Shown one piece after another: positions 12,173-36,814 of a stretch of 37,520 nucleotides of DNA (position 1 is the first letter of the stretch; each line of letters starts with the position of its first letter). The notes beneath the pieces are model-generated. The model saw only the letters and a program-made list of their open reading frames with translations. It had not been told where the DNA came from and made no database searches. The stretch is from the IMG/VR virus record IMGVR_UViG_3300017963_000490, positions 1 to 37,520 of that record; one strand, written 5' to 3'. This stretch comes from a virus. The position numbers and the translations under genes are program-made.

Positions 12173-15094
12173 ATGGCCAAGCCCAAGACCACCAAGGCCA
12201 AGACGGCCAAGCCCAAGGCCCCACGGGTCCGGCCCAGGGCCGTGGATGAACACGCGGAGGACTGGTATTCGGAGCGGCCGGAGTCCCCGGAGGCGGAGGC
12301 CATGAGGCGGCGGAGGGAGGTGGCCAAGGCCGTCAGGACCTCCCGTGTCCGCCAGGCCAGGGAGGACCCCAACGCCTTCGCGGAATATGCCTTTGAGGAC
12401 TCCGTCACTGGAAACAAGCTCCGCCAGGCCAAGGTCCACCGTGACCTCCAGGAGGCCATCCGGGACAGGGACGTGGACCACCTCATGGTGGAGTTTCCGC
12501 GGAACCACGGCAAGTGTTGTGCGGCTGGAACGTTGATTCATCTTGAGGATGGTAGCCTTGTCCCTGTCGAGGTTTTCGACAGTGGCCGGGTTCTCACAAT
12601 GGACGACACGTTCAGGATCGTTAGTGGTGACGCCACGTGTCAGTCCAATGGGATCAAGGACTGCATTACCGTTTTGACGAAGACCGGTCGGGAGCTGGTG
12701 GTTTCACATGACCATCCGTTTCGGACTGGCAATGGATGGACAGCGGCGGAGGACCTGGACGCTGGTGTTCGTGTGGCTGTGATGAATGGATGCTCTGTCC
12801 CTGTCCAAGGAGACATGGACGAGCTGGACGCCTATGTCATTGGGGTCATGGTTGGAGACGGTGGGACGACGGATAGGGCTAGGGTGACGTGTTCTGATCA
12901 GGCTGTGTTGAACCAGGTGAGACAATGGTCCGATCGTCATGGATGGACGGTGTCTCATGTTGATGGTTACGACTATTCCATCACAGGTCACAAGGGAGCG
13001 AAGTCAGGAGGGCCAACCCACTATTTGAGAGACATGGGTCTTATGGGATGCAGATCTCATAACAAGACTATCCCGCATCAAGTATTAGTTGGTGGTGACC
13101 AAGCTAGGGCCGCGTTCCTTGCTGGATATTTCGACGCTGACGGGACGGTGAATAACAAGGATGGCGGTTCGGCTGAATTTTATTCCGTGAACAAGCCTTT
13201 GTTGGTGACTGTCCAGGACGTTCTGGCAAGGTTTGGGATTGTTTCAACCATCTCTAGAAAGCGAGGGATGTATCGGAAGAAACACCACCTGTCATGGAGG
13301 CTGACTATCCGTGGCGATGGTTTGGACAGGTTCCGCAATATAGTAAGGCCAAGGGGGGACAAGGCTGACAGGATTGATTCTCTGGACTGTGGAGGAGGCG
13401 ACGGCAATGGGGCCAAGCTGGATCTGTTTCCTGATGAGTTGTGGCGGCCCCATGTCAAAGCAACTGGTCTGTCCTTGCGTCAACAGGGTCTTCGGATTGA
13501 CACAAAGAACAGGATCTCCAGACCAAAGCTCCGGAGGCTGGCGGAGCTGGACGATAATGACAAGCTTCGTCAGGTGGCCAATGGTCAAGTCTTTTGGGAT
13601 GAGGTTACGTCAGTTGAGCCTGTTGGCCCACGTGAGACCTATGATCTGACCGTCTCCGGAACACACAACTTCGTTTCTCATGGATTCGTGACTCACAACA
13701 CCACACAGGTTGAGATCTCCATCCTGTGGCTGTTGGGCCAGGACCCTAACCTCCGGTTCAAGATCGTGTGTGAGTCGGACAACAAGGCCCAGGAACGTGT
13801 CCAACACTTGGCCCAACACATCATGGGGAACAGCCGGATCAGGGACGTGTTCCCCCACCTCCGTCCGGCCAGGCGGGGGGACTGGACCAAGAAGAAGATC
13901 GTGGTGGACCGGCCCCGGCTCATGAGGGACGTCTCCATTGAAGCCTGTGGGATTCAGACGGCGGCCACCGGCGGACGGGCTGACTACCTGGTGGCGGATG
14001 ACCCGGTGGGGAGGCGGAACGCCCTGGAGATCCCCAAGCTCCGGGAGACCGTCAAGAGGGCCTGGCATTCAGATTGGTTGAACCTGTTGGAGCCCACCGG
14101 CCGGACCATCTACGTCTACACCCCGTGGCACACAGCGGACCTGTCCCACAAGCTCAAACGGAACCCGGTCTATCGTGTGTTCTCCCGTCCGATCGGACCC
14201 AAGATGGAGCCGGTGTGGGAGGCCAAGTGGCCCGTGGAGAAGCTGGAGGCCAAGCTGGCGGAGGTGGGTCAACGGGAGTTTGATCGTGGCTACCGGCTGA
14301 TCGCCTTGTCCGGGGAGTATGCCACCGTCCAGGACTCATGGGTCCAATACTGGACGGAGGAGCCCAACCTGGCGGACCTGATCGTGTTCACGGCCTATGA
14401 CCTGTCCACCGGTGAGGGGGAGGACTTCTTCTCATCGGTGACGGTGGGCCTGGACGGCCGTGACCTGGGCCAGGCCCAGCCCAGGATCTACGTCCTGGAC
14501 GCTTGGCATGGACACTTGACGTTCATGGCCCAGGTGGGAGCTGTCCTCCAGGAGGCCAAGCTGTGGCTCCCCCAGGCCGTGGCCCTGGAGGCCGTTCAGT
14601 ATCAAGCGGTCCTCCCCCAGGTCCTCCAGGCGGCCCGTGATGACAAGCGGACGGAGCTGACGGCGGACATTGTCCCGGTCCGTCCCCGGCTGTCCAAGGC
14701 CCTCCGGCTGTCCGCTATCACTCCCCTCCTGGAGCTGGGCCGTGTCTCTTTCAACCCGGCCCTGGACCCTGGACGGGGGCTCAAAGGGGACCTGGTGGAG
14801 GAGCTGACCATGTTCCCCCTGGCGGCCCATGATGACCTGGTGGACGCCTTTGTCTACGCCACGGCCCTGGCCGTGGACTACTCTATCCGGGCCGGTGGGA
14901 GGGGAGTTTCCGTGTCCAGCTACGGGGCGGACCGGTCCCGTGGTCAGGCTCCGGAGGCTCCAGTCCAGGCCCCGGATGGGGCCATTCTGACCTCCACCGG
15001 CCAGGCCAATGACGTCCCCGATGAGGCCGTGAGGGAGGCCGTGGAGGGGGGTTCAGTCCCTCCGATCTACTCCTGGGCCAACCTTGGGGATTGA
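12173..15094 (+). CDS. terL: Large terminase subunit interrupted by an intein, 973 aa precursor
   Basis: This is the ATP-driven DNA packaging motor and nuclease. After removal of the intein (residues 115-509) a protein of 578 residues remains, a usual size. The Walker A motif PRNHGK-TT is split: K114 precedes the intein and T510 follows it. Walker B is DYLVADDP (D609, D610). The RNase H-like nuclease acids are D743 (AYDLS), E806 (LEAVQYQ) and D887/D891 (HDDLVDA). Translation starts 9 nt after the small terminase gene. The ribosome-binding site is modest (TGAGGTCCAGG). The precursor needs splicing to regain a working P-loop. Confidence 0.95.
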   Translation: MAKPKTTKAKTAKPKAPRVRPRAVDEHAEDWYSERPESPEAEAMRRRREVAKAVRTSRVRQAREDPNAFAEYAFEDSVTGNKLRQAKVHRDLQEAIRDRDVDHLMVEFPRNHGKCCAAGTLIHLEDGSLVPVEVFDSGRVLTMDDTFRIVSGDATCQSNGIKDCITVLTKTGRELVVSHDHPFRTGNGWTAAEDLDAGVRVAVMNGCSVPVQGDMDELDAYVIGVMVGDGGTTDRARVTCSDQAVLNQVRQWSDRHGWTVSHVDGYDYSITGHKGAKSGGPTHYLRDMGLMGCRSHNKTIPHQVLVGGDQARAAFLAGYFDADGTVNNKDGGSAEFYSVNKPLLVTVQDVLARFGIVSTISRKRGMYRKKHHLSWRLTIRGDGLDRFRNIVRPRGDKADRIDSLDCGGGDGNGAKLDLFPDELWRPHVKATGLSLRQQGLRIDTKNRISRPKLRRLAELDDNDKLRQVANGQVFWDEVTSVEPVGPRETYDLTVSGTHNFVSHGFVTHNTTQVEISILWLLGQDPNLRFKIVCESDNKAQERVQHLAQHIMGNSRIRDVFPHLRPARRGDWTKKKIVVDRPRLMRDVSIEACGIQTAATGGRADYLVADDPVGRRNALEIPKLRETVKRAWHSDWLNLLEPTGRTIYVYTPWHTADLSHKLKRNPVYRVFSRPIGPKMEPVWEAKWPVEKLEAKLAEVGQREFDRGYRLIALSGEYATVQDSWVQYWTEEPNLADLIVFTAYDLSTGEGEDFFSSVTVGLDGRDLGQAQPRIYVLDAWHGHLTFMAQVGAVLQEAKLWLPQAVALEAVQYQAVLPQVLQAARDDKRTELTADIVPVRPRLSKALRLSAITPLLELGRVSFNPALDPGRGLKGDLVEELTMFPLAAHDDLVDAFVYATALAVDYSIRAGGRGVSVSSYGADRSRGQAPEAPVQAPDGAILTSTGQANDVPDEAVREAVEGGSVPPIYSWANLGD
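12515..13699 (+). mobile_element. Intein with LAGLIDADG homing endonuclease in the large terminase Walker A motif
   Basis: 395 residues, from C115 (CCAAGTLIHLEDG, block A) to N509 (VSHGFVTHN, block G), with the +1 extein residue T510. Block B is VVSHDHPF, with S178 in place of the usual Thr and H181. Two LAGLIDADG motifs are present: DAYVIGVMVGDGG (219-231) and FLAGYFDADG (315-324), so the endonuclease is likely active. Splicing nucleophiles are Cys1 and Thr+1, and the penultimate His and final Asn are intact. Codons are visibly less GC-rich than in the flanking gene, which indicates recent transfer. Confidence 0.95.
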
Positions 15095-18368: not shown

Positions 18369-18662
18369 ATGGACGTCCATTATGAGGAAAAAACCGGCGG
18401 AGCAACGTTCGCGGCCGGTGAGGTCAAGCTGGCCTTTGTGGCCAGGCGGCTGTGGCTCCGCCACGTGGCCGGAGCTGGGGTGGCGGAGGTATCGATCGGT
18501 GAGGACTACGCCACCACCCACGTCAAGCTGGAGGGCCTGTCCGCGGGACTCCAGGGGACCCATCCCCATGAGGTGGAGATCGTGGCCACGTCCGGGAAGG
18601 GTGTCTCCAAGCTGGCCGTGAAGGGGGCCGCGGAGACCGTGGCGATCAGGGCTACGTCATGA
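18369..18662 (+). CDS. Hypothetical beta-rich protein, 97 aa
   Basis: The ATG follows GATGGAGGGTTCAC. The sequence is largely strands (GATFAAGEVKLAFVARRLWL; VAEVSIGEDYATTHVKLEGL; HEVEIVATSGKGV) and looks like a small Ig-like or jelly-roll fold, as in minor structural proteins. It overlaps the portal start by 4 nt, so it is probably made with the head proteins. Function unknown. A 63-nt gap before it holds no clear promoter. Confidence 0.75.
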   Translation: MDVHYEEKTGGATFAAGEVKLAFVARRLWLRHVAGAGVAEVSIGEDYATTHVKLEGLSAGLQGTHPHEVEIVATSGKGVSKLAVKGAAETVAIRATS

Positions 18663-20488
18663 GCCAGGCGGCGGAGGAAGCCCACCTCCGGCTGGTGGTG
18701 TCACAGTCCGGCTCCACGGCGGACGGCCTGGAGCTGACCAGGGACCGGCTGTTGAAGGGTGAGGAGCTGGTGGCCCAGCGGTCCAACCTCCAGGACACGG
18801 CCACGTCCATGGCCCAGGCTTTCGGTGAGGCCGGGACCATCCCCCCACCCTTTGAGCCCTTGGTCCTGGTCCGCCTCTACGGGGTGTCCAACAGCCTCCG
18901 CCAGAACGTGGACGCCCTGGTCCACAACGTCCACGGAGGGGGGTTCACGTTTGAGCCTGTCCTGGACCTGGACGCAAGTGAGACCAGGGAGACGGTCCGG
19001 ATGGCCATGGAGATGGACCGGGAGCGTAGGGCGGAGATGGAGGCCGGGGACAAGGACCCGGAGCCCATCAACCCGGTGACGGACCAGGAGGTGGATGAGC
19101 GGATCGAACAACTCCGGAACCAGTCCCGCCGGGAACGGGTCCGCCTCAAAGCGTTCTTTGACTATGCCGTCCGTGAGTCCAGTTTCGTCCGTCTCCGTCG
19201 CCAGGTGGGGGTGGACGCGGAGACAATCGGGTGGGGGGCCTTTGAGGTCCTACGGAACGCCAGGGGGGAGCCCAAGCGGCTCCGCTATGCTCCGGCCTGG
19301 ACCCTCCGGGCCTTGCCACGGGCCAGGGAGGCCGTGGAGGTCAAGGACGTGGTGAGGACCACGGACGTGACGTGGGAGGAGATCACGGACACCAAGGCGT
19401 TCCGCCTCTACGTCCAGATCTATGAGGGCCGGTCCGTCTACTTCAAAGAATACGGGGACCCCAGGACCGTGTCCTCCATGACCGGCCGGGTCTACAAGGA
19501 CCCCAAGGACATGGAGGGAGCGGAGCCCAACGCCAGGCCGGCCACGGAGCTGTTGTGGTTCCGCCTGGACAACCCGGAGTCCGACGTCTACGGCCTGGTC
19601 CGATGGTCCGGGACCATCCTGTCCGTCCTGGGGAGCCGGGAACAGGAGGAGGTCAACCTCCTGTTCTTTGACAACAAGGCCATCCCCCCCTTGGTGGTCA
19701 TGGTGTCCGGAGGTCACCTGGCGGCGGACGCGAAAGAGGAGCTACAACAGCTCATCAAGGACCACATCAAGGGCTCCCGTAACTTCCACCGAATCCTCAT
19801 CTTGGAGGCGGAGGCCCAGGCCGGGACAGCTCCCCTGTCCGGCCTCCCCGGCCAACAGTCTGTCCGGATAGAGATCAAGCCCCTGACGGACGCGATCTTC
19901 AAGGACCAGATCTGGCCGGAGTATGACCGGGACAACAGGAGCAAGGTGGGTGAGTCATTCCGCGTCCCCCCCATCCTCCGGGGTGTGAGCCGGGACCAGA
20001 ACAGGTCCACGGCCGGGTTCGCCTGGCGGATCACGGAGGACCAGGTGTTCCAGCCGGACCGGGATGACTTCGACTTTGAGATCAACCGGACCCTCCTCCG
20101 TGATCTCCGTGTCCACCTGTGGACCTTCAAGTCCAAGTCCACCTATCGTCCGGACCCGGAGGAGGTCCTGGGGAAGGCCGGGGAGCTGACACAGGCCATC
20201 CTCACCCCCCAGGAGGCCCGTGGGATCGTGGCGGCGGCCCTTGGGGCTGACCTCCCCAGGGTGGACGCCACGTGGGCCAAGCTCCCCCTCCGGTATGCCC
20301 TGGCCGGGTTTGAGACGGAGGAGGCGGAGGCGGAGGCCACTACCCCCTCCCGGCCCGTTGACACCCCACCCCAGGAGGACACGGAGGAGCCGGCCGATGA
20401 GGCGGACCTCCCCGTCTCCAGGGTCAAGGTGTCTCCTGATACGTTCCGCCGGCTGTTCCCGGCGGACGTCCCGTCCGGAGACCGATGA
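18659..20488 (+). CDS. Portal protein, PBSX/XkdE-like family, 609 aa
   Basis: The ATG overlaps the previous stop. It forms the ring at the capsid vertex through which DNA passes. Features of the PBSX-type portal family are visible: KEYGDPRTV (about 262), LLWFRLDNPESDVYGLVRW with the Tyr-Gly pair (about 298-316), LLFFDNKAIPPLVVMVSGG (about 337-355), and the late LTQAILTPQEARG. The C-terminal ~80 residues are an acidic Pro/Glu-rich tail. The next gene starts in its last codon. It is longer than most family members because of an extended charged N-terminal region (about 95-165). Confidence 0.88.
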   Translation: MSQAAEEAHLRLVVSQSGSTADGLELTRDRLLKGEELVAQRSNLQDTATSMAQAFGEAGTIPPPFEPLVLVRLYGVSNSLRQNVDALVHNVHGGGFTFEPVLDLDASETRETVRMAMEMDRERRAEMEAGDKDPEPINPVTDQEVDERIEQLRNQSRRERVRLKAFFDYAVRESSFVRLRRQVGVDAETIGWGAFEVLRNARGEPKRLRYAPAWTLRALPRAREAVEVKDVVRTTDVTWEEITDTKAFRLYVQIYEGRSVYFKEYGDPRTVSSMTGRVYKDPKDMEGAEPNARPATELLWFRLDNPESDVYGLVRWSGTILSVLGSREQEEVNLLFFDNKAIPPLVVMVSGGHLAADAKEELQQLIKDHIKGSRNFHRILILEAEAQAGTAPLSGLPGQQSVRIEIKPLTDAIFKDQIWPEYDRDNRSKVGESFRVPPILRGVSRDQNRSTAGFAWRITEDQVFQPDRDDFDFEINRTLLRDLRVHLWTFKSKSTYRPDPEEVLGKAGELTQAILTPQEARGIVAAALGADLPRVDATWAKLPLRYALAGFETEEAEAEATTPSRPVDTPPQEDTEEPADEADLPVSRVKVSPDTFRRLFPADVPSGDR

Positions 20489-21831
20489 CCAGCATGGCCA
20501 ACGGAGGGCCGGTGACGGAGGCCGGCCTGGTCACGGACCTGGACTTCCGGTGGCTCCCCCCGGCGGAGCGTCAATTCTTCAAGCTGTCCCCGTTCCAGCT
20601 CACCGTGGCTCCAGGAGGCCACAGGGGGCCGCGGAGGATGGGGAGGGTCCTCCTGTCCGCCTGGGCCGGAGAAGGCGTTGTGAGCCGGCTGGGGAGGGCC
20701 AGTGACGGCGACACCAGGCGGATGGCCCTGGAGCTGGCGGAGCTGACCGGTGACCCCGTGGTGGTGGGGGAGGTGGACTCCGTGGAGGGTGTGGCTGGGG
20801 AGCCGGTCTACAAGGCGATCGGGATGGTGACGATGGCCAAGGCCAGGGACCCCCTGTCCCCGGAGGCTTGGGTCCAGGAGGTCACCAGGCTGGCGGCCAG
20901 GCTGGGGGTGTTCGCGGAACAGGAGGCGGCCCACCTCACGGCGGAGGCCATGGAGTGGTTCCGGTTTGATTTCGAGGATGCTACCGGACGCCAGATCGCC
21001 ACGGCCACAGGTGGCCTCCGCGGGACCCTGGCCTCCCCCAGGGGGACCATGGTCCGGAGCCAACAGGTAGCCATCACCAGGGCGCTACGGGCCGTCATGG
21101 CTCAAACCGGAGCCGGGTGGGCCAGGCTCCCGGAGATGGCCCCCAGGCTGGGCTCCACGTTCAACCTCCCGGACCGGCGGATCGCTCAATCCATGGCCCG
21201 TCATCATGGGTTCTGGGTTCGGAACCAATACGGCCGTGTGAGTCAATCCCTGGCCCGTCAGGCCCAGCCCATCATCCAACAGGGGATCAGCCAAGGGTTG
21301 GGCCGGGACACGATCGGCAAGGAGCTGGAACGCCAGATCCAGGGCGGCCTTCAGATGAGGTGGTATTGGCGGATCGTGGCGGCCAACCACATCTCCAGGG
21401 CCAGGTCCTACGCGGCCGGCTACACGATGAGGGCCGCGGGGATCACCCACTACCGGATAGAGGCCATCCTGGACGAAGCCACCACCGAAACCTGTTTGAT
21501 GCTCCACAATCGCTTGATGCCCATTGACGGGGCCATGGCCCGTCAGGAGGCCATCATGAGGGACCCGTCCCCGGACGGGGTCCTGTGGAATCAGCCTTTC
21601 ATGAAACAGGGTGTCAACCCGGAGACGGGGGAGGAGGAGCTGTTCCTGGAGTATCCGGACAACACCAGGGCCACCGTGGCCACCGTCCAGGAACGTGGGG
21701 CCGGGACCGGCTCACCGGGGCGCTACTCCAACGTGATGAACAGCCAACAGATGGTGTCCTCAGCCATTGGGTTCCCCCCCTATCACCATGCTTGCCGGAC
21801 CACCCTGATCGCGGAAGTGGGGCCGGTGTGA
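20485..21831 (+). CDS. MuF-like head morphogenesis protein, 448 aa
   Basis: The ATG overlaps the portal stop. The N-terminal ~150 residues are unrecognised. Residues ~150-440 follow the phage Mu gpF/SPP1 gp7 pattern: a long helical region with RQAQPIIQQGISQGLGRDTI, then TETCLMLHNRLMP (matching the family's DxxTC...C/H) and the C-terminal PPYHHACRTTL (matching PPxHxxCRC). In related phages this minor capsid protein binds the portal and may be injected with DNA. No toxin domain is attached. Confidence 0.85.
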   Translation: MTSMANGGPVTEAGLVTDLDFRWLPPAERQFFKLSPFQLTVAPGGHRGPRRMGRVLLSAWAGEGVVSRLGRASDGDTRRMALELAELTGDPVVVGEVDSVEGVAGEPVYKAIGMVTMAKARDPLSPEAWVQEVTRLAARLGVFAEQEAAHLTAEAMEWFRFDFEDATGRQIATATGGLRGTLASPRGTMVRSQQVAITRALRAVMAQTGAGWARLPEMAPRLGSTFNLPDRRIAQSMARHHGFWVRNQYGRVSQSLARQAQPIIQQGISQGLGRDTIGKELERQIQGGLQMRWYWRIVAANHISRARSYAAGYTMRAAGITHYRIEAILDEATTETCLMLHNRLMPIDGAMARQEAIMRDPSPDGVLWNQPFMKQGVNPETGEEELFLEYPDNTRATVATVQERGAGTGSPGRYSNVMNSQQMVSSAIGFPPYHHACRTTLIAEVGPV

Positions 21832-22052: not shown

Positions 22053-22502
22053 ATGACAAGCAACCTGACGGCCCCCGGACGGATTCTTCAGGACCATGAG
22101 CTGGAGGAGGTCCGGGCCAAGATCACGGACACGGTCATGGAGACGTTCCGGCTCCGGCCCATGCCGTCCGGCAACATCACGGAGAAGGAACTACAGGACC
22201 GGCTGGACGTCACCGTGGAGATCTGGAACCACCTCTATGGTGTGTGTCGATGGAGCCGGGATCGGGCCATGGACCACCTCCAGCCCCTCCTCCTGGCCTG
22301 TATCGACGGAGCCAACCTCCAGGACCAGCTCCCGGAGCCGGAGGAGGAGATCAGGGAGGGGACTGTGGGCTGGGCTCCGGAGGTGATCCAGAAGGCGGAG
22401 GCGGAGCGTAGGCTGTCCGCCCTGGCCGTGGGAGAAGGCCACGTGATACAACAGGGGGAGCCCCCGTGTGGGGAAAACGACGACACAGGAGGACAGGGAT
22501 GA
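22053..22502 (+). CDS. Hypothetical protein, 149 aa
   Basis: The ATG is preceded by AGGAGGTAGAGG. Helical protein (HELEEVRAKITDTVMETFRL; LQDRLDVTVEIWNHLY) with an acidic, Gly-rich tail. It lies between MuF and the protease polyprotein, where many phages encode small head-assembly proteins. No family is recognised. Confidence 0.75.
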   Translation: MTSNLTAPGRILQDHELEEVRAKITDTVMETFRLRPMPSGNITEKELQDRLDVTVEIWNHLYGVCRWSRDRAMDHLQPLLLACIDGANLQDQLPEPEEEIREGTVGWAPEVIQKAEAERRLSALAVGEGHVIQQGEPPCGENDDTGGQG

Positions 22503-23002
22503 CCGTGGAGACCATCGATCAGGTGTTCGGAGCTGGTGAGCCGGAGACCACGGAGATCAGCCTCACCAAGGGAGCGGACTTGGTCCGTGGGGCCGTGTCC
22601 AAGGCCGTGGCGGAGGGGACCCCCCAGGAGGTCACCAAGGCCATCACCCAACGGGCCTACCACCTCACCAAGGCCATGGCGGCGGCCCCCGATGACGGCG
22701 ACACCATCACCGTGGACGCGGACCTCCTGAAGGCCCTGGAGGCGGACGCGGCGGACGCGGTGGTCACCGGCTCCATGACGGAGGCCATGGAGCGGCTGAC
22801 CAAGATGATGGCCCCGGCGGACGTGGACAGGACGGACGTGGACAAGGCGGACCCCAAGCCGGACCAGGGTGGACAGCCCCCGGCGGACGCCACCCCGGAC
22901 GGGGACGTGGCCTGGCCATCGGACCTCAACACGGCCCCGGACCCGGACGGCCTGGACGATTGGGGGAGGGACCCGGACCTCAACGCGGCCGGCCAGGAGT
23001 AG
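22499..23002 (+). CDS. Hypothetical acidic protein, 167 aa
   Basis: The ATG follows AGGAGGACAGGG and overlaps the previous stop. The first ~115 residues are helical (LVRGAVSKAVAEGTPQEVTK; LLKALEADAADAVVTGSM). The last ~50 are a disordered Asp/Pro-rich tail (DVDRTDVDKADPKPDQGGQ). It could be an assembly or scaffold helper. A 73-nt gap with a Cys-rich hairpin follows. Confidence 0.7.
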   Translation: MTVETIDQVFGAGEPETTEISLTKGADLVRGAVSKAVAEGTPQEVTKAITQRAYHLTKAMAAAPDDGDTITVDADLLKALEADAADAVVTGSMTEAMERLTKMMAPADVDRTDVDKADPKPDQGGQPPADATPDGDVAWPSDLNTAPDPDGLDDWGRDPDLNAAGQE

Positions 23003-23075
23003 TCCCGGCGGCCCCCCAGCCCTCACCCCCCCCCACAGGCTGGCCCGTGGAGGCTGGCCACCACGGAGGACCGCG

Positions 23076-25172
23076 ATGGAGACCAGGACGGTGGCCGTGA
23101 CGGCCGATGATGACAAGGCCCTCCAGGCGGCCCAGGCGGCGGCCATGGACCTGGTGGAGGCGGCCCGGACGTGGGCCTCCAGGACCCTGGAGGTGGTCAA
23201 GGCCCCCCTGGCCCTGGTGGTGGAGATCAGTGAGGTCCCCAACAGGGCGGCCGTCCTGGCGGCGGAGCTGGCCAAGCTCACCCCGGAGCGGACCACCAAG
23301 GCCGGACAGGACGGTCCGTTCCTTGACGCGGTGGACGCCCTGGTCCAGGCCCTCCAGGCCCTCCGGCCTGTCCTGGTCCGAATCGAGGCCCCCCAGGCGG
23401 AGGCCGTGGCCGTGGCCACAGGGTGGCTGTTGAGCCTCCAGGACCTGGTGGACAGGGCGGAGGAGGCCAGGGCGGAGACCACCAAGGCCGTCCCCGGCGG
23501 CGGAGTCCACGCCCACAGCCTGGACGTGGACCAGGACGGAGACCACGTCCACCTCCTCCGGCTGTCATCGGGGGAGCTGGTCCTCACCGGCCGGGACGGA
23601 GCCCACAGCCACAACATGAACCACCTGGCGGCCGGTGTCCCCGGCGGAGCCCACGGCCACACGTTCCGGCTCCCGGACGGCCGTGAGCTGGCCGTGGCTC
23701 CAGGCGGCCCCCACCTCCATGAGGTGGAGGGGGAGACGGAGACCACCCACGGCGGAGTCCACGTTCATGAGGTGGAGGTGGACGGGGAGGCCCTGTCCAC
23801 CCTCCTCCCGGAAACGGCCGTGGACAAGGCCAGGGAGGAGCTGTTCAAGCTCCGTGGCCTGTGGGGGAGCCCAGCCGGGAAAACCAAGATCGCGGCCTAC
23901 ATCAAGGGCCGGCTCCCGGCGGACGTCCACACCTATGTTGAGCCCTTCGCCGGTGGAGCGGCCGTGTTCTTTTCCAGGGAGGAGCCCTCCCCGGTGGAGG
24001 TCCTGGCGGACGCCCACCCCCTGGTGGCCGGGGCCTTCAAGTTTGTCCGGGACGCCACGGAGGAGGACATCAAGCGGCTGGAGGAGATGGACTGGTCAGG
24101 CTCCGTCCGCCAGGCCACCAAGGTCCTGGAGATGGAGCCCAGGGATGAGGTGGAGCGTTTCTACCGGTTCGCCTATCGCCGGTGGGCCAGCTTCTTCCGC
24201 CAGGGGGAGGCTCCGGACCTCCACTATGACCGGACCGTGGACGGCAAGGCGGCCACCCTTATGGCCCGGTTCCGTGGCGTCCAGGAACGTCTCCAGGGGG
24301 TCCACATCCGGGAGGCGGACTACAAGGCCGTGGTCCAGGAATTCGACGGGCCGGACACGTTCTACTACCTGGACCCACCCTATGAGGGGTTCACCCAACA
24401 GGTGGGGGAGGAGGGCTTCTCCACGGAGGAGCTGGTCAAGGTCCTCCAGGGGGTCAAGGGCCGGTTCCTCCTCCACTACGGGGCGGACCGTGAGGAGGAC
24501 TTCCTGGGCCATGGGTGGACGGTCCGTGTCCTGGAGACCAGCCGGACCCCAGGCGGAGCGGCTGGCGGACGTGACGGGACCAAGCTGTTGGAGGTCCTGA
24601 ATTACTCCCCGGACCCCCAGGCTGACACCGGCAAGGTGGCCAAGGCGGCGGACCGTCCACACGGAGCTGTCCTCCCCGTGGTCAAGTCCGATCGTCCGGA
24701 GGAGGAGCGTTATATCCTGGGGGTGGTCCTGGAGCCCAATGACGGAGGGCCTGGTGTTCCCTTGGCCCCGGACACACAGGGGGACGTCTACTCCGCGGAG
24801 GAGATCCGCCAGGCGGCCCACCTGTTCATGGAGCACTACCGGAACCTGGGCCACCAACACCGGGAGCTGGTCACCGGCGGCAAGCTCCGGATCTTGGAAT
24901 CCTACGTTGCCATGGTGGACATGGTGGTCCTCCCTGACGGACGGGCCGTGGGGGTTCCCAACCTCCTGGACGTGATCCGGACGGGGGAGATAGAGATCCC
25001 ACCGGAGGCCCAGCTCATTTACCGCGGGACGTGGCTGTTGGGGATGAGGGTGGTGGATGATGACCTGTGGGAGGACTTCAAGGCCGGCCGGATCACGGGC
25101 CTGTCCATCGGAGGCTCCGCCAGGAGGGTCCAGGAGGCGGCCCCGGCTGGTGTGAGCCCAGATCCTACTTGA
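23076..25172 (+). CDS. Polyprotein: His-x-His repeats, D12-class DNA adenine methyltransferase, XkdF-like prohead protease, 698 aa
   Basis: The ATG has GGAGGACCGCG upstream. Part 1 (1-140) is helical. Part 2 (about 140-235) has six His-x-His dyads (HAH145, HVH, HSH, HGH, HLH, HVH231), suggesting a metal-binding beta structure. Part 3 (about 255-525) is a complete D12-class N6-adenine methyltransferase: GSPAGKTKI, motif I EPFAGGAAVFF (E289), motif IV DPPY (433-436) and LNYSP. Part 4 (about 543-690) matches XkdF/Peptidase_S78_2 prohead protease: RYILGVVLEPN, AAHLFMEHYRNLGHQHRE, ESYVAMVDMV, YRGTWLLGMRVVDDDLWEDF and GLSIGG. This order is in a single frame with no break. Confidence 0.85.
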   Translation: METRTVAVTADDDKALQAAQAAAMDLVEAARTWASRTLEVVKAPLALVVEISEVPNRAAVLAAELAKLTPERTTKAGQDGPFLDAVDALVQALQALRPVLVRIEAPQAEAVAVATGWLLSLQDLVDRAEEARAETTKAVPGGGVHAHSLDVDQDGDHVHLLRLSSGELVLTGRDGAHSHNMNHLAAGVPGGAHGHTFRLPDGRELAVAPGGPHLHEVEGETETTHGGVHVHEVEVDGEALSTLLPETAVDKAREELFKLRGLWGSPAGKTKIAAYIKGRLPADVHTYVEPFAGGAAVFFSREEPSPVEVLADAHPLVAGAFKFVRDATEEDIKRLEEMDWSGSVRQATKVLEMEPRDEVERFYRFAYRRWASFFRQGEAPDLHYDRTVDGKAATLMARFRGVQERLQGVHIREADYKAVVQEFDGPDTFYYLDPPYEGFTQQVGEEGFSTEELVKVLQGVKGRFLLHYGADREEDFLGHGWTVRVLETSRTPGGAAGGRDGTKLLEVLNYSPDPQADTGKVAKAADRPHGAVLPVVKSDRPEEERYILGVVLEPNDGGPGVPLAPDTQGDVYSAEEIRQAAHLFMEHYRNLGHQHRELVTGGKLRILESYVAMVDMVVLPDGRAVGVPNLLDVIRTGEIEIPPEAQLIYRGTWLLGMRVVDDDLWEDFKAGRITGLSIGGSARRVQEAAPAGVSPDPT

Positions 25173-25217: not shown

Positions 25218-26756
25218 ATGGCACACCCCCTCACCGATCAGAGTGACGAAGCCCAGGGGACGGCCGGTCCCGATCAGGCGGAGAGTTTTGTCCACAGGCT
25301 CACGGACCTCCTAGTTGAGGAAGTGTCCGCGGTGGACAGGGCGGCCAACCGGCGGACCATCGTGGTCAGAAAAAGAGACAACGGAGGGACCATGCTTGGA
25401 CAGGCAATCCATGACGGGGCGGAGCCCACCAGGGACATCGATCCCACCTGGACCGTGGACGTGACCAAGGAAACGCCCCCGGAGGCCCAGGGAGGCCCCC
25501 AGGACGGCGACAAGGCCCAGGGGCAGGGTGAGGGCCGGGACGGAGCTGACGGCGGCCAGGGTGGCCAGGACAAGGCCGTGTGGACGGACGCCTACATCAA
25601 CGACCTTCCGGACTCCGCGTTCCTCTACGTCGCCCCCGGTGGGGAGAAGGACGCGGACGGGATGACCACCCCCAGGTCCCTCCGCTACTTCCCGGTGAGG
25701 GACGACAAGGGGGAGCTGGACCTCCCCCACGTCCGGAACGCCCTGTCCAGGATTCCCCAGGCGGACATCCCCCAGGAGGCCAAGGACGCGGCCAAGGCAG
25801 AGGCGGAGAAATACCTGGAGGAGCTGACGGCGGAGGCCCAGGAGGGTGAGGAGGCCGCGAACGGTCAGGACGGCCAGGACAAGGCCGTGGACACCCCGGA
25901 CGGCCAGGAGGCCGGTGACACCGGGTCCGAGGGCCAGGATGGCCAGGACGCGGCCGGAGCCGGTGACGTGGCCAAGGCCCTGGCCCCGGTCCTGAAGGCC
26001 ATGGGGGCGGAGCCGGAGGACAAGGCCAGGGACCTCCTGTGGATGGCCATGGATGAGATCGGCCGGGGAGCCCTCCGGTCCGATGAGGACAAGGCGGCCG
26101 TGTCCGGCCTCCTGGACGCCCTCCGTGGGGCCGTGATGAAGGCGGAGGCCCCGGAGGCCCAGGACGCGGACTCCGGCTCCACCGGGGCGGACAAGGCCAC
26201 GGCGGAGGTCATGGAGGCCGTCAAGCTTCTCCAGGTGGCCCTGGGCCGGATGGTGGCCGGGGAGTCCCTGGACGCGGAGGCCCATGAGGCCGTGGCCCGT
26301 GCTCATGAGATCCTGTCCGCCTCCACCAGCTCCGATGAGCCGGCGGCGGAGGGTGATGGCCAGGACCAGGCGGAGATGGCGGACCGTGAGGAGACGGCCA
26401 AGGCCGGGGCCAAGATGTCCGCGGCCAACCGGCGGAAGTTCAGGGACGCCCTGGACAAGCTGGTGGAGCTGTTCCACGGGGTCCTCCCGGAGTCCGAGCG
26501 GAAGGGCTGGCCCAAGCCCACGGCCAAGGCGGCGGAGCCGGCGGAGGACCGGACGGAGCTGACCAAGGCGGAGGACCGGGTCAAGACCCTGGAGGATGAG
26601 CTGGCCGTGGCCAAGGCGGAGGTCAAGGACGTCAACGTCCGGCTGGCCAAGGCCATGGACCGGGCCGTGGACTCCAACGTGGTCCCCACGGAAAAGAGAA
26701 CCGGTGAGGGTGATGTGTTCTCATGGGGCTTTGACCTCAACGACCCGGACGACTAG
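25218..26756 (+). CDS. Scaffold / capsid assembly protein, 512 aa
   Basis: An in-frame stop at 25200 leaves ATG 25218 as the only upstream start. It has no ribosome-binding site, so translation may be leaderless or coupled. EVSAVDRAANRRTIVVRK near residues 35-52 is the motif that typically begins or follows the protease part of phage capsid-assembly proteins. About 125-205 matches a small domain found in prohead proteins (DSAFLYVAPGGEKDADGM; PRSLRYFPVRDD). The rest is long, highly charged helix, as in internal scaffolds that guide coat assembly and are then cut. The final ~55 residues form a coiled coil (ELTKAEDRVKTLEDELA). Confidence 0.8.
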   Translation: MAHPLTDQSDEAQGTAGPDQAESFVHRLTDLLVEEVSAVDRAANRRTIVVRKRDNGGTMLGQAIHDGAEPTRDIDPTWTVDVTKETPPEAQGGPQDGDKAQGQGEGRDGADGGQGGQDKAVWTDAYINDLPDSAFLYVAPGGEKDADGMTTPRSLRYFPVRDDKGELDLPHVRNALSRIPQADIPQEAKDAAKAEAEKYLEELTAEAQEGEEAANGQDGQDKAVDTPDGQEAGDTGSEGQDGQDAAGAGDVAKALAPVLKAMGAEPEDKARDLLWMAMDEIGRGALRSDEDKAAVSGLLDALRGAVMKAEAPEAQDADSGSTGADKATAEVMEAVKLLQVALGRMVAGESLDAEAHEAVARAHEILSASTSSDEPAAEGDGQDQAEMADREETAKAGAKMSAANRRKFRDALDKLVELFHGVLPESERKGWPKPTAKAAEPAEDRTELTKAEDRVKTLEDELAVAKAEVKDVNVRLAKAMDRAVDSNVVPTEKRTGEGDVFSWGFDLNDPDD

Positions 26757-26859: not shown

Positions 26860-27795
26860 ATGACCCCCACAAGGACGATTCTCCAGAAGGCCGATCTGTC
26901 GCTGTCGGACCTGATCACGGACGGTGGCTACCTGGAGCCGGCCCAGGCCAAGAAATTCCTGGAGCGAGCGATCCGACGCGCCAAGCTCTCCGGGATGATC
27001 ACGGTGACCACCCTGAAGTCCCCAACCCAGATCCTGGAAAACCTCCGGTTCGCCGGCCAGGTCCTCCAGCCGGGGACGTCCGGGGAGGCCCTGACGGAGG
27101 CCCAGCGGTCCAAGCCGGACCTGGGGAAAGAGACGTGGAACGCCAAGCTGTTCAAGGCGGAGGTCCGTATCCCGGATGAGGTCCTGGAGGACAACATCGA
27201 GGGCCAGGGCCTGAAGACCACGATCATGAACAGGGCCTCCGAGGCCGTGGGCCGGGACGCGGAGAAGGTGGCGATCCAGGGTGACACCAGCTCCACCAAC
27301 CCCCTCCTGGCCCAACTGGACGGGATCATCGTCCAGGCCACCAGCCACCCCGTCTCCGCCTCCGGAGCGAGGCTGGACGCGGATGAGCTGAAAAAGATGC
27401 TCCGGGCCATGCCCAAGGAGTATCTGGACGATCGGGCCAACCTCCGGTTCCTCACGTCCATCAACGCTCAGGACGACTACCACAGCTCCCTGGAGGCCCT
27501 GACGGCCGACAAGGGGATCACGATGATCACGGATGACGGGTCCCCCAAGTACAAGGGGATCCCCGTGGAGGACATCCCCCTGTTCCCGGAGGACCTGGGG
27601 GTGGGCTCCGATGAGACCGTGACCCTCCTGACCAACCCCAAGAACATCTACATGGGGGTGTGGCGGCGGATCAAGGTGGCCACGGACATGGACGTCTCCG
27701 CCGGGGTGTTCATCATCGTGATCAGCCTCCGCTTCGATGTCCGCTACGCCATTGAGGACTCCGTGGTCAAGCTCACGGAGGTCCTGAACAGCTAG
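26860..27795 (+). CDS. Major capsid protein, HK97 fold, 311 aa
   Basis: The ATG follows GGAGGAGGGAGT. It is the shell subunit. The order fits HK97-fold proteins: N-arm (about 1-50), a loop and spine region (KSPTQILENLRFAGQVLQPG; WNAKLFKAEVRIPDEVLEDN), a domain with GRDAEKVAIQGDTSS, then the A-domain strands and the C-terminal signature (YMGVWRRIKVATDMDVSAG; IVISLRFDVRYAIEDSVVK). It is preceded by the scaffold gene and a 103-nt gap with an AAACC/GGTTT hairpin (26763-26777), and it lacks a Ser/Gly-rich N-terminal delta domain, consistent with separate scaffold. Confidence 0.9.
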   Translation: MTPTRTILQKADLSLSDLITDGGYLEPAQAKKFLERAIRRAKLSGMITVTTLKSPTQILENLRFAGQVLQPGTSGEALTEAQRSKPDLGKETWNAKLFKAEVRIPDEVLEDNIEGQGLKTTIMNRASEAVGRDAEKVAIQGDTSSTNPLLAQLDGIIVQATSHPVSASGARLDADELKKMLRAMPKEYLDDRANLRFLTSINAQDDYHSSLEALTADKGITMITDDGSPKYKGIPVEDIPLFPEDLGVGSDETVTLLTNPKNIYMGVWRRIKVATDMDVSAGVFIIVISLRFDVRYAIEDSVVKLTEVLNS

Positions 27796-36334: not shown

Positions 36335-36814
36335 ATGCCATTGAAGGACCCGGAGGCAAGGCGGGAGTATGAGCGTCAACGGAGGGAGCGGATCAAGAGT
36401 GACCCGGACCTCCTGGAGCGGAGGAGGGAGCAGAACAGGCGAGGACAGCGCAAGCAACGCCAGCTCCATCCAAACCGTGTCAAGGCCACGCAAAGACGAT
36501 ACCACAGGGCCAACCCTGGGAAGGCAAGGGAGGCCATCCTTCGGAGGGACTACGGGATCGGGATCTCGGACTATGACAAGATGGAGGAGGCCCAGGGTGG
36601 CCTTTGCGCGATCTGTGGGTCTGCGGAGACAACCAATGACCCAAGGACTGGCAAAGTCAGGCGGCTGGCCGTGGACCATGACAAGAAAACAGGATGTGTC
36701 CGTGGGCTCCTGTGTCGCCGGTGTAACACGGCCATCGGCCTCCTGGACCACGACTCCAACCGGCTCAACAGGGCCGTGGAATACCTGGAGGTGAGCCGGT
36801 GCGCGGAAGGCTAA
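36335..36814 (+). CDS. HNH / endonuclease VII-like homing endonuclease, 159 aa
   Basis: The ATG lacks a good ribosome-binding site. Residues 1-68 are very basic and helical (DNA-binding arm). Residues ~72-150 are an Endonuclease VII-type HNH fold: ISDYDKMEEAQGGLCAICG with C91/C94, the metal-binding VDHDKKTG with H115, and GLLCRRCNTAIG with C127/C130 and N131. It cuts DNA with a his-Me-finger site. It is free-standing between head genes, less GC-rich than its neighbours, and its end overlaps the re-made start of the next gene. Probable homing endonuclease. Confidence 0.88.
   Translation: MPLKDPEARREYERQRRERIKSDPDLLERRREQNRRGQRKQRQLHPNRVKATQRRYHRANPGKAREAILRRDYGIGISDYDKMEEAQGGLCAICGSAETTNDPRTGKVRRLAVDHDKKTGCVRGLLCRRCNTAIGLLDHDSNRLNRAVEYLEVSRCAEG

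Follow-up and report, generated by a model that had tools for sequence, protein, structure and literature searches.

The virus record IMGVR_UViG_3300017963_000490 raises the question of why a phage would encode a DNA methyltransferase and a prohead protease as a single protein. All 37,520 nucleotides of this record (37.5 kb, 67% G+C; here called the window) were analyzed, and the gene in question occupies positions 23,076 to 25,172. The original prediction had described a one-frame fusion of a helical part, a His-x-His region, a D12-class methyltransferase, and an XkdF-like prohead protease next to the scaffold gene, and this organization was borne out by the 698-amino-acid open reading frame (ORF), by Pfam, and by the neighboring genes. 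We propose, with a probability of roughly 0.6, that the N terminus of XkdF carries DNA-acting or counterdefense enzymes as cargo into the prohead, the cargo in this case being a Dam-fold adenine methyltransferase that would be freed by proteolysis.

Both enzymatic domains scored well above their Pfam cutoffs within the single frame. The D12 methyltransferase (PF02086) matched residues 268 to 439 (E value of 7.6e-16, 59 bits against a cutoff of 22), and XkdF (PF14550) matched residues 535 to 621 and a second stretch (E value of 6e-21, 75.2 bits against a cutoff of 24). The match of YmaF to the His-x-His region was only subthreshold (E value of 0.05), and repeats like those of the window sit C-terminal of XkdF in phages DLP5, RcZahn, and PJ32. 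PHROG_13242, a family of 450 amino acids listed under "unknown function," aligned with residues 261 to 616 (E value of 8.8e-76) and is itself a methyltransferase-XkdF fusion. The gene lies 3' of the genes for the portal and a MuF-like protein and 5' of a scaffold-like ORF and an HK97-type capsid gene. XkdF had been described as usually short, and in most cultured phages that we saw it is indeed a short gene of its own. Dozens of contigs contain the fusion, and chance and an assembly error in one contig were thereby ruled out as its source.

The structure of the fusion protein was modeled with AlphaFold2 from an alignment of 21 rows comprising the window and its relatives. The overall predicted local distance difference test (pLDDT) score was 67, and the methyltransferase core was confident, most blocks between residues 270 and 490 scoring above 80. 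In agreement with the earlier assignment, predicted residues 258 to 512 superposed on Escherichia coli Dam (Z score of ~20, root mean square deviation [rmsd] of 2.7 to 2.8 over ~220 residues), as well as on DpnM (Z score of 19.5), T4 Dam (~17), and 7m6b (21.8). Motif I (EPFAGG) and motif IV (DPPY) are both intact in the window, and nearly all fused methyltransferase copies keep DPPY and motif I. Among 25 single-methyltransferase fusions, the median pairwise ratio of nonsynonymous to synonymous substitution rates (dN/dS; NG86, 255 pairs that are not independent of one another) was 0.25 for the methyltransferase, 0.14 for XkdF, and 0.48 for the linkers. Judged from these sequences, purifying selection is maintaining the fused methyltransferases intact, and the enzyme of the window looks functional.

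The distribution of the fusion was assessed with XkdF-alignment scans, which gave 40 and 80 viral loci together with 3 genome loci. A scan of viral contigs with the single protein gave no matches, so that capsid and then XkdF alignments were required, and a scan with an alignment of the methyltransferase and His-x-His parts matched only one locus (L010). We tallied 67 XkdF ORFs that had a predicted start before the match; several of these are cut by contig ends, and some of the contigs are near-duplicates. At least 200 amino acids precede the matched part of XkdF in 51 of the 67, and DPPY is present in 28. PHROG_13242 had matches in 29 of 195 Myxococcota genomes at E values below 1e-30, some of them partial. 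The fusion is present twice in Citreicoccus inhibens M34. Plasmid matches that span the methyltransferase and beyond, in Acinetobacter and Natronorubrum, were rejected as ordinary methyltransferases with other partners.

XkdF holds the C-terminal place across these fusions while the content of the N-terminal slot varies. A single methyltransferase precedes XkdF in L022, L082, L141, and others; two are present in L068 to L071, L077, and L088; and three are present in L140 and L155. The 1,529-amino-acid XkdF protein of L010 combines a methyltransferase with an ATP-dependent DNA ligase, and a protein of 2,052 amino acids from a Myxococcota genome (L154) combines three methyltransferases and a ligase with XkdF. 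A ligase is fused to XkdF without a methyltransferase in L023 (1,411 amino acids) and L119 (1,733 amino acids), and L106 (1,880 amino acids) carries a metallo-beta-lactamase-fold domain and a ligase. Nucleotidyltransferase-like and LigD-type phosphoesterase-like stretches in L010, L023, and L154 were recognized by eye and had no Pfam match. In a cultured phage, Arthrobacter phage Laroye, gp18 (L158:4308-5429) is a fusion of a 2H phosphoesterase with XkdF that is annotated as "RNA ligase" and is possibly a packaged counterdefense enzyme. The nearest relative of the window, L010, has a capsid protein that is 74% identical, and its fusion protein is 36% identical over the N-terminal part and 56% identical over XkdF. 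Between the methyltransferase and the protease, L010 contains an insert of ~800 amino acids that includes the ligase. Cargo is thus exchanged at a fixed position.

The same family may explain a recurrent annotation. Genes of ~155 amino acids that encode XkdF and no methyltransferase are labeled "DNA methyltransferase" in HQ832595.1 (L003:3896-4366) and PP496416.1 (L004:3003-3467), and the label is shared by the short XkdF of many other Pseudomonas phage records and by PHROG_1530. It probably leaked from the fusion proteins. Short Pseudomonas and Lactococcus genes with this label had been considered as candidate fusions and proved to be XkdF only or XkdF plus scaffold.

The protease itself appears to be incomplete within its own ORF. 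H595 and S677 fall in conserved XkdF columns and are, from this conservation, the probable catalytic residues; the GTW...SIGG core is also present. The strand EEVSAVDRAAN, in contrast, is absent from the XkdF ORF of the window and lies near the start of the next one, at the scaffold N terminus. Under a strict pattern, this motif occurs within 400 nucleotides downstream of XkdF in 49 of 68 loci, and a variant was visible by eye in 12 of 13 inspected loci that failed the pattern; overall, roughly nine relatives in ten encode the strand in the ORF after XkdF. It is also found in the next ORF in the cultured phages DLP5, RcZahn, PJ32, CRP-6, and Mufasa8 and, in a more divergent form, in PaP1 and its relatives; no such motif was seen in the annotated gene that follows in L338C. 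Other arrangements exist: the motif stands at the N terminus of XkdF's own ORF in Firmicutes XkdF and in a Lactococcus phage protein, follows the protease in the same ORF in L012, and starts the next ORF after each of two tandem XkdF genes in L021 (5470-6969). An artificial read-through construct, in which XkdF runs on past two stop codons into the first part of the scaffold, gave five models, with a pLDDT of 72.5 for the best and of 54 to 60 for the others. The scaffold segment forms a strand in the best model, which superposes on T4 gp21 (5jbl) with a Z score of 10.1 and an rmsd of 2.7 over 123 residues; the aligned range, residues 17 to 235 of the construct, includes the scaffold strand, and the next entry in VIA-align has a Z score of 3.4. 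Foldseek alone recovered gp21 only weakly (E value of 0.77), a sequence search of solved structures with XkdF found no match, and the list of 50 entries for the full-length model, which is taken up by the methyltransferase, does not contain 5jbl. This one prediction supports a last XkdF strand that is supplied in trans by the scaffold. The gp21 match also speaks against an earlier survey in which XkdF was considered unrelated to SH-type peptidases (PMC7824862). We tentatively extend these observations to a split XkdF that would be completed in trans by the scaffold strand, with the scaffold acting as both tether and activator, and whose N terminus would be a general port by which methyltransferases, ligases, and 2H phosphoesterases enter phage heads and are delivered at infection; we hold this broader scheme to be possible, at less than even odds.

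Under the proposed mechanism, XkdF would dock on the scaffold within the growing prohead, aided by the scaffold N-terminal strand as it completes the protease fold, and the methyltransferase would enter the prohead attached to XkdF. Proteolysis in the flexible linker at residues 518 to 538 would then release the methyltransferase, which would remain in the head and leave with the DNA. Its most likely target would be the genome that the phage brings into the next cell, which it could protect against restriction. Prohead delivery of the methyltransferase is a reasonable inference, strengthened because relatives hold other enzymes in the same slot, and use at DNA entry is favored over methylation during packaging because the other cargoes, DNA ligases and the 2H phosphoesterase, would better fit the arrival of DNA in a new cell. 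The precedent is DarB of phage P1, an antirestriction methylase-helicase that resides in the virion head and protects phage DNA in cis (PMC5512222, PMC9024508). Mox of Myxococcus phage Mx8 was also considered as a precedent and set aside; the review says no more of it than that it is a DNA adenine methylase of a phage, and the records listed do not include Mx8.

As to what the enzyme would modify, the frequency of GATC in the window had been taken to indicate a plentiful Dam-like target. The observation stands as a count, with 194 sites seen and 187 expected, and fails as a pointer to the target: in eight window genes, GATC is neither depleted nor enriched (76 versus 73 in a synonymous shuffle), and plentiful sites that are not avoided are no evidence of a target. 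Moreover, DpnM has an FNVP(F/Y)G stretch, part of the GATC-reading hairpin, that is not retained in the aligned region of the window. Four other sites were strongly depleted when measured against synonymous-codon shuffles of eight long window ORFs, namely, GTAC (1 seen, 28 expected), GCGC (3 and 60), GAGCTC (0 and 12), and GGGCCC (0 and 9). Because of this depletion, restriction pressure on this phage is plausible, and the pattern suggests that the pressure comes from the host.

Simpler uses of the same fusion have to be weighed against cargo delivery. The fusion could merely link the methyltransferase to the late operon, in which the gene indeed lies, so that a cytoplasmic enzyme would methylate progeny DNA before packaging and have no delivery role. 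Methylation of progeny DNA before packaging suffices for protection if the next host has the same specificity. An independent gene in the late operon could do as much, however, and the 2H phosphoesterase and DNA ligase fused to XkdF have no obvious role before packaging; we consider this explanation unlikely. Less probable again is a methyltransferase that modifies DNA as it enters the prohead, while still tethered. This geometry follows from the one-frame fusion with the protease, but it would need S-adenosylmethionine (SAM) inside the prohead, it leaves the ligase and 2H phosphoesterase cargoes unexplained, and maturation proteases usually work before or during packaging, so that the tether would be short-lived.

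A further idea, in which the methyltransferase lacks catalytic activity and serves as a structural spacer or a DNA-binding part of the head core, draws on L010, in which motif X and motif I are altered (GGS and ETFMG) and which therefore implies that some methyltransferase copies may be weakened. The retention of DPPY and motif I in nearly all fused copies, the dN/dS of the methyltransferase, and the presence of quite different enzymes in other slots make this idea highly improbable. The altered motifs of L010 nevertheless count against cargo delivery too, as do the doubtful supply of SAM inside the head, were methylation meant for packaging, and the possibility of mere late expression in the cytoplasm. 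A further point on this side is that, at 80% coverage of the query, no cultured-phage record of the collection was found to have a methyltransferase-XkdF fusion.

Features of the fusion gene and the surrounding head genes in the window
Feature	Coordinates	Strand	Remarks
698-amino-acid fusion (helical N terminus, His-x-His, D12 methyltransferase, XkdF protease)	23076..25172	+	single unbroken ORF
Shine-Dalgarno-like CGGAGG	23064..23069	+	precedes ATG at 23076
Helical N-terminal region, residues 1-138	23076..23489	+	common to window and L010
His-x-His repeat region, residues 139-232	23490..23771	+	subthreshold YmaF match
D12/Dam-fold methyltransferase, residues 258-512	23847..24611	+	EPFAGG 289-294, DPPY 433-436
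Low-confidence linker at methyltransferase-protease junction, residues 518-538	24627..24689	+	predicted structure
XkdF (Peptidase_S78_2) prohead protease, residues 541-687	24696..25136	+	Pfam, conserved columns
Scaffold-like ORF, 512 amino acids, C terminus FSWGFDLNDPDD	25218..26756	+	
Scaffold N-terminal strand VHRLTDLLVEEVSAVDRAANRRTIVV, predicted trans complement of the protease fold	25290..25367	+	
Major capsid protein, phrog_1623, HK97-type	26860..27795	+	
Portal protein	18659..20488	+	
MuF-like head morphogenesis protein	20485..21831	+	weak Pfam, phrog_13868

Upstream of the fusion gene, the small ORF at 22466-23002 has a C terminus (WPSDLNTAPD...DPDLN) that resembles the scaffold C terminus, and WPLDLN occurs in L022; the likeness is perhaps that of a shared capsid-binding tag. 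Elsewhere in the window, a terminase-like protein (12173-15094) is split by an intein that harbors a homing endonuclease of the LAGLIDADG type, and a recombination endonuclease VII domain is encoded at 36335-36814.

The individual parts of this system, and the idea of packaged multienzyme effectors, are already known. A literature search of an incomplete library found no report of a protease-methyltransferase fusion or of cargo carried by a protease, and the original prediction did not extend to the apparent division of the protease fold between two ORFs, to how widespread the fusion is, or to the additional cargo enzymes. In the proposed head-loading route, the maturation protease is the carrier: it enters the prohead and could, in principle, release its cargo by its own cleavage. 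Such a route would represent a natural design for enzyme delivery. It provides a testable function for PHROG_13242, and the family may account for phage proteases being mislabeled as "DNA methyltransferase." If the split-protease reading is true, it hints at how protease activity stays restricted to scaffold-filled proheads.

Among known systems, PHROG_13242 shares the methyltransferase-XkdF fusion, without the helical N-terminal and His-x-His parts, and PHROGs gives it no function. Polyvalent proteins are likewise multidomain polypeptides encoded among head genes; their presumed route is into the virion and, with the DNA, into the new cell, and their domains include adenine methylases and 2H phosphoesterases (Iyer et al. 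2017, PMC5512222). The window protein has the corresponding feature of two or more unrelated domains encoded among virion genes, whereas the anchors named in the searched text of that article are MuF, portal, and others, with no mention there of prohead proteases. P1 DarB, which is counted among the polyvalent proteins, differs in its SF2 helicase, C-terminal to the methylase, and in a capsid-targeting signal at its N terminus (PMC5512222, PMC9024508); Pfam found no helicase domain in the 698-amino-acid protein, which is thus not a methylase-helicase of the DarB type. E. coli Dam, DpnM, and T4 Dam share the fold (Z scores of 17 to 20), motif I, and DPPY with the window enzyme, which differs in its fusion to a protease and in not keeping FNVP(F/Y)G. 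The short XkdF proteins of Pseudomonas phage PaP1, Stenotrophomonas phage DLP5, Rhodobacter phage RcZahn, and others have the same S78_2 domain and gene position, and the strand motif, in its usual or a variant form, begins the next ORF, but they are ~155 amino acids long and carry no enzyme cargo. T4 gp21 resembles the XkdF plus scaffold-strand model in its predicted superposition, whereas in the window the last strand would come from the next ORF and the N terminus is fused to an enzyme.
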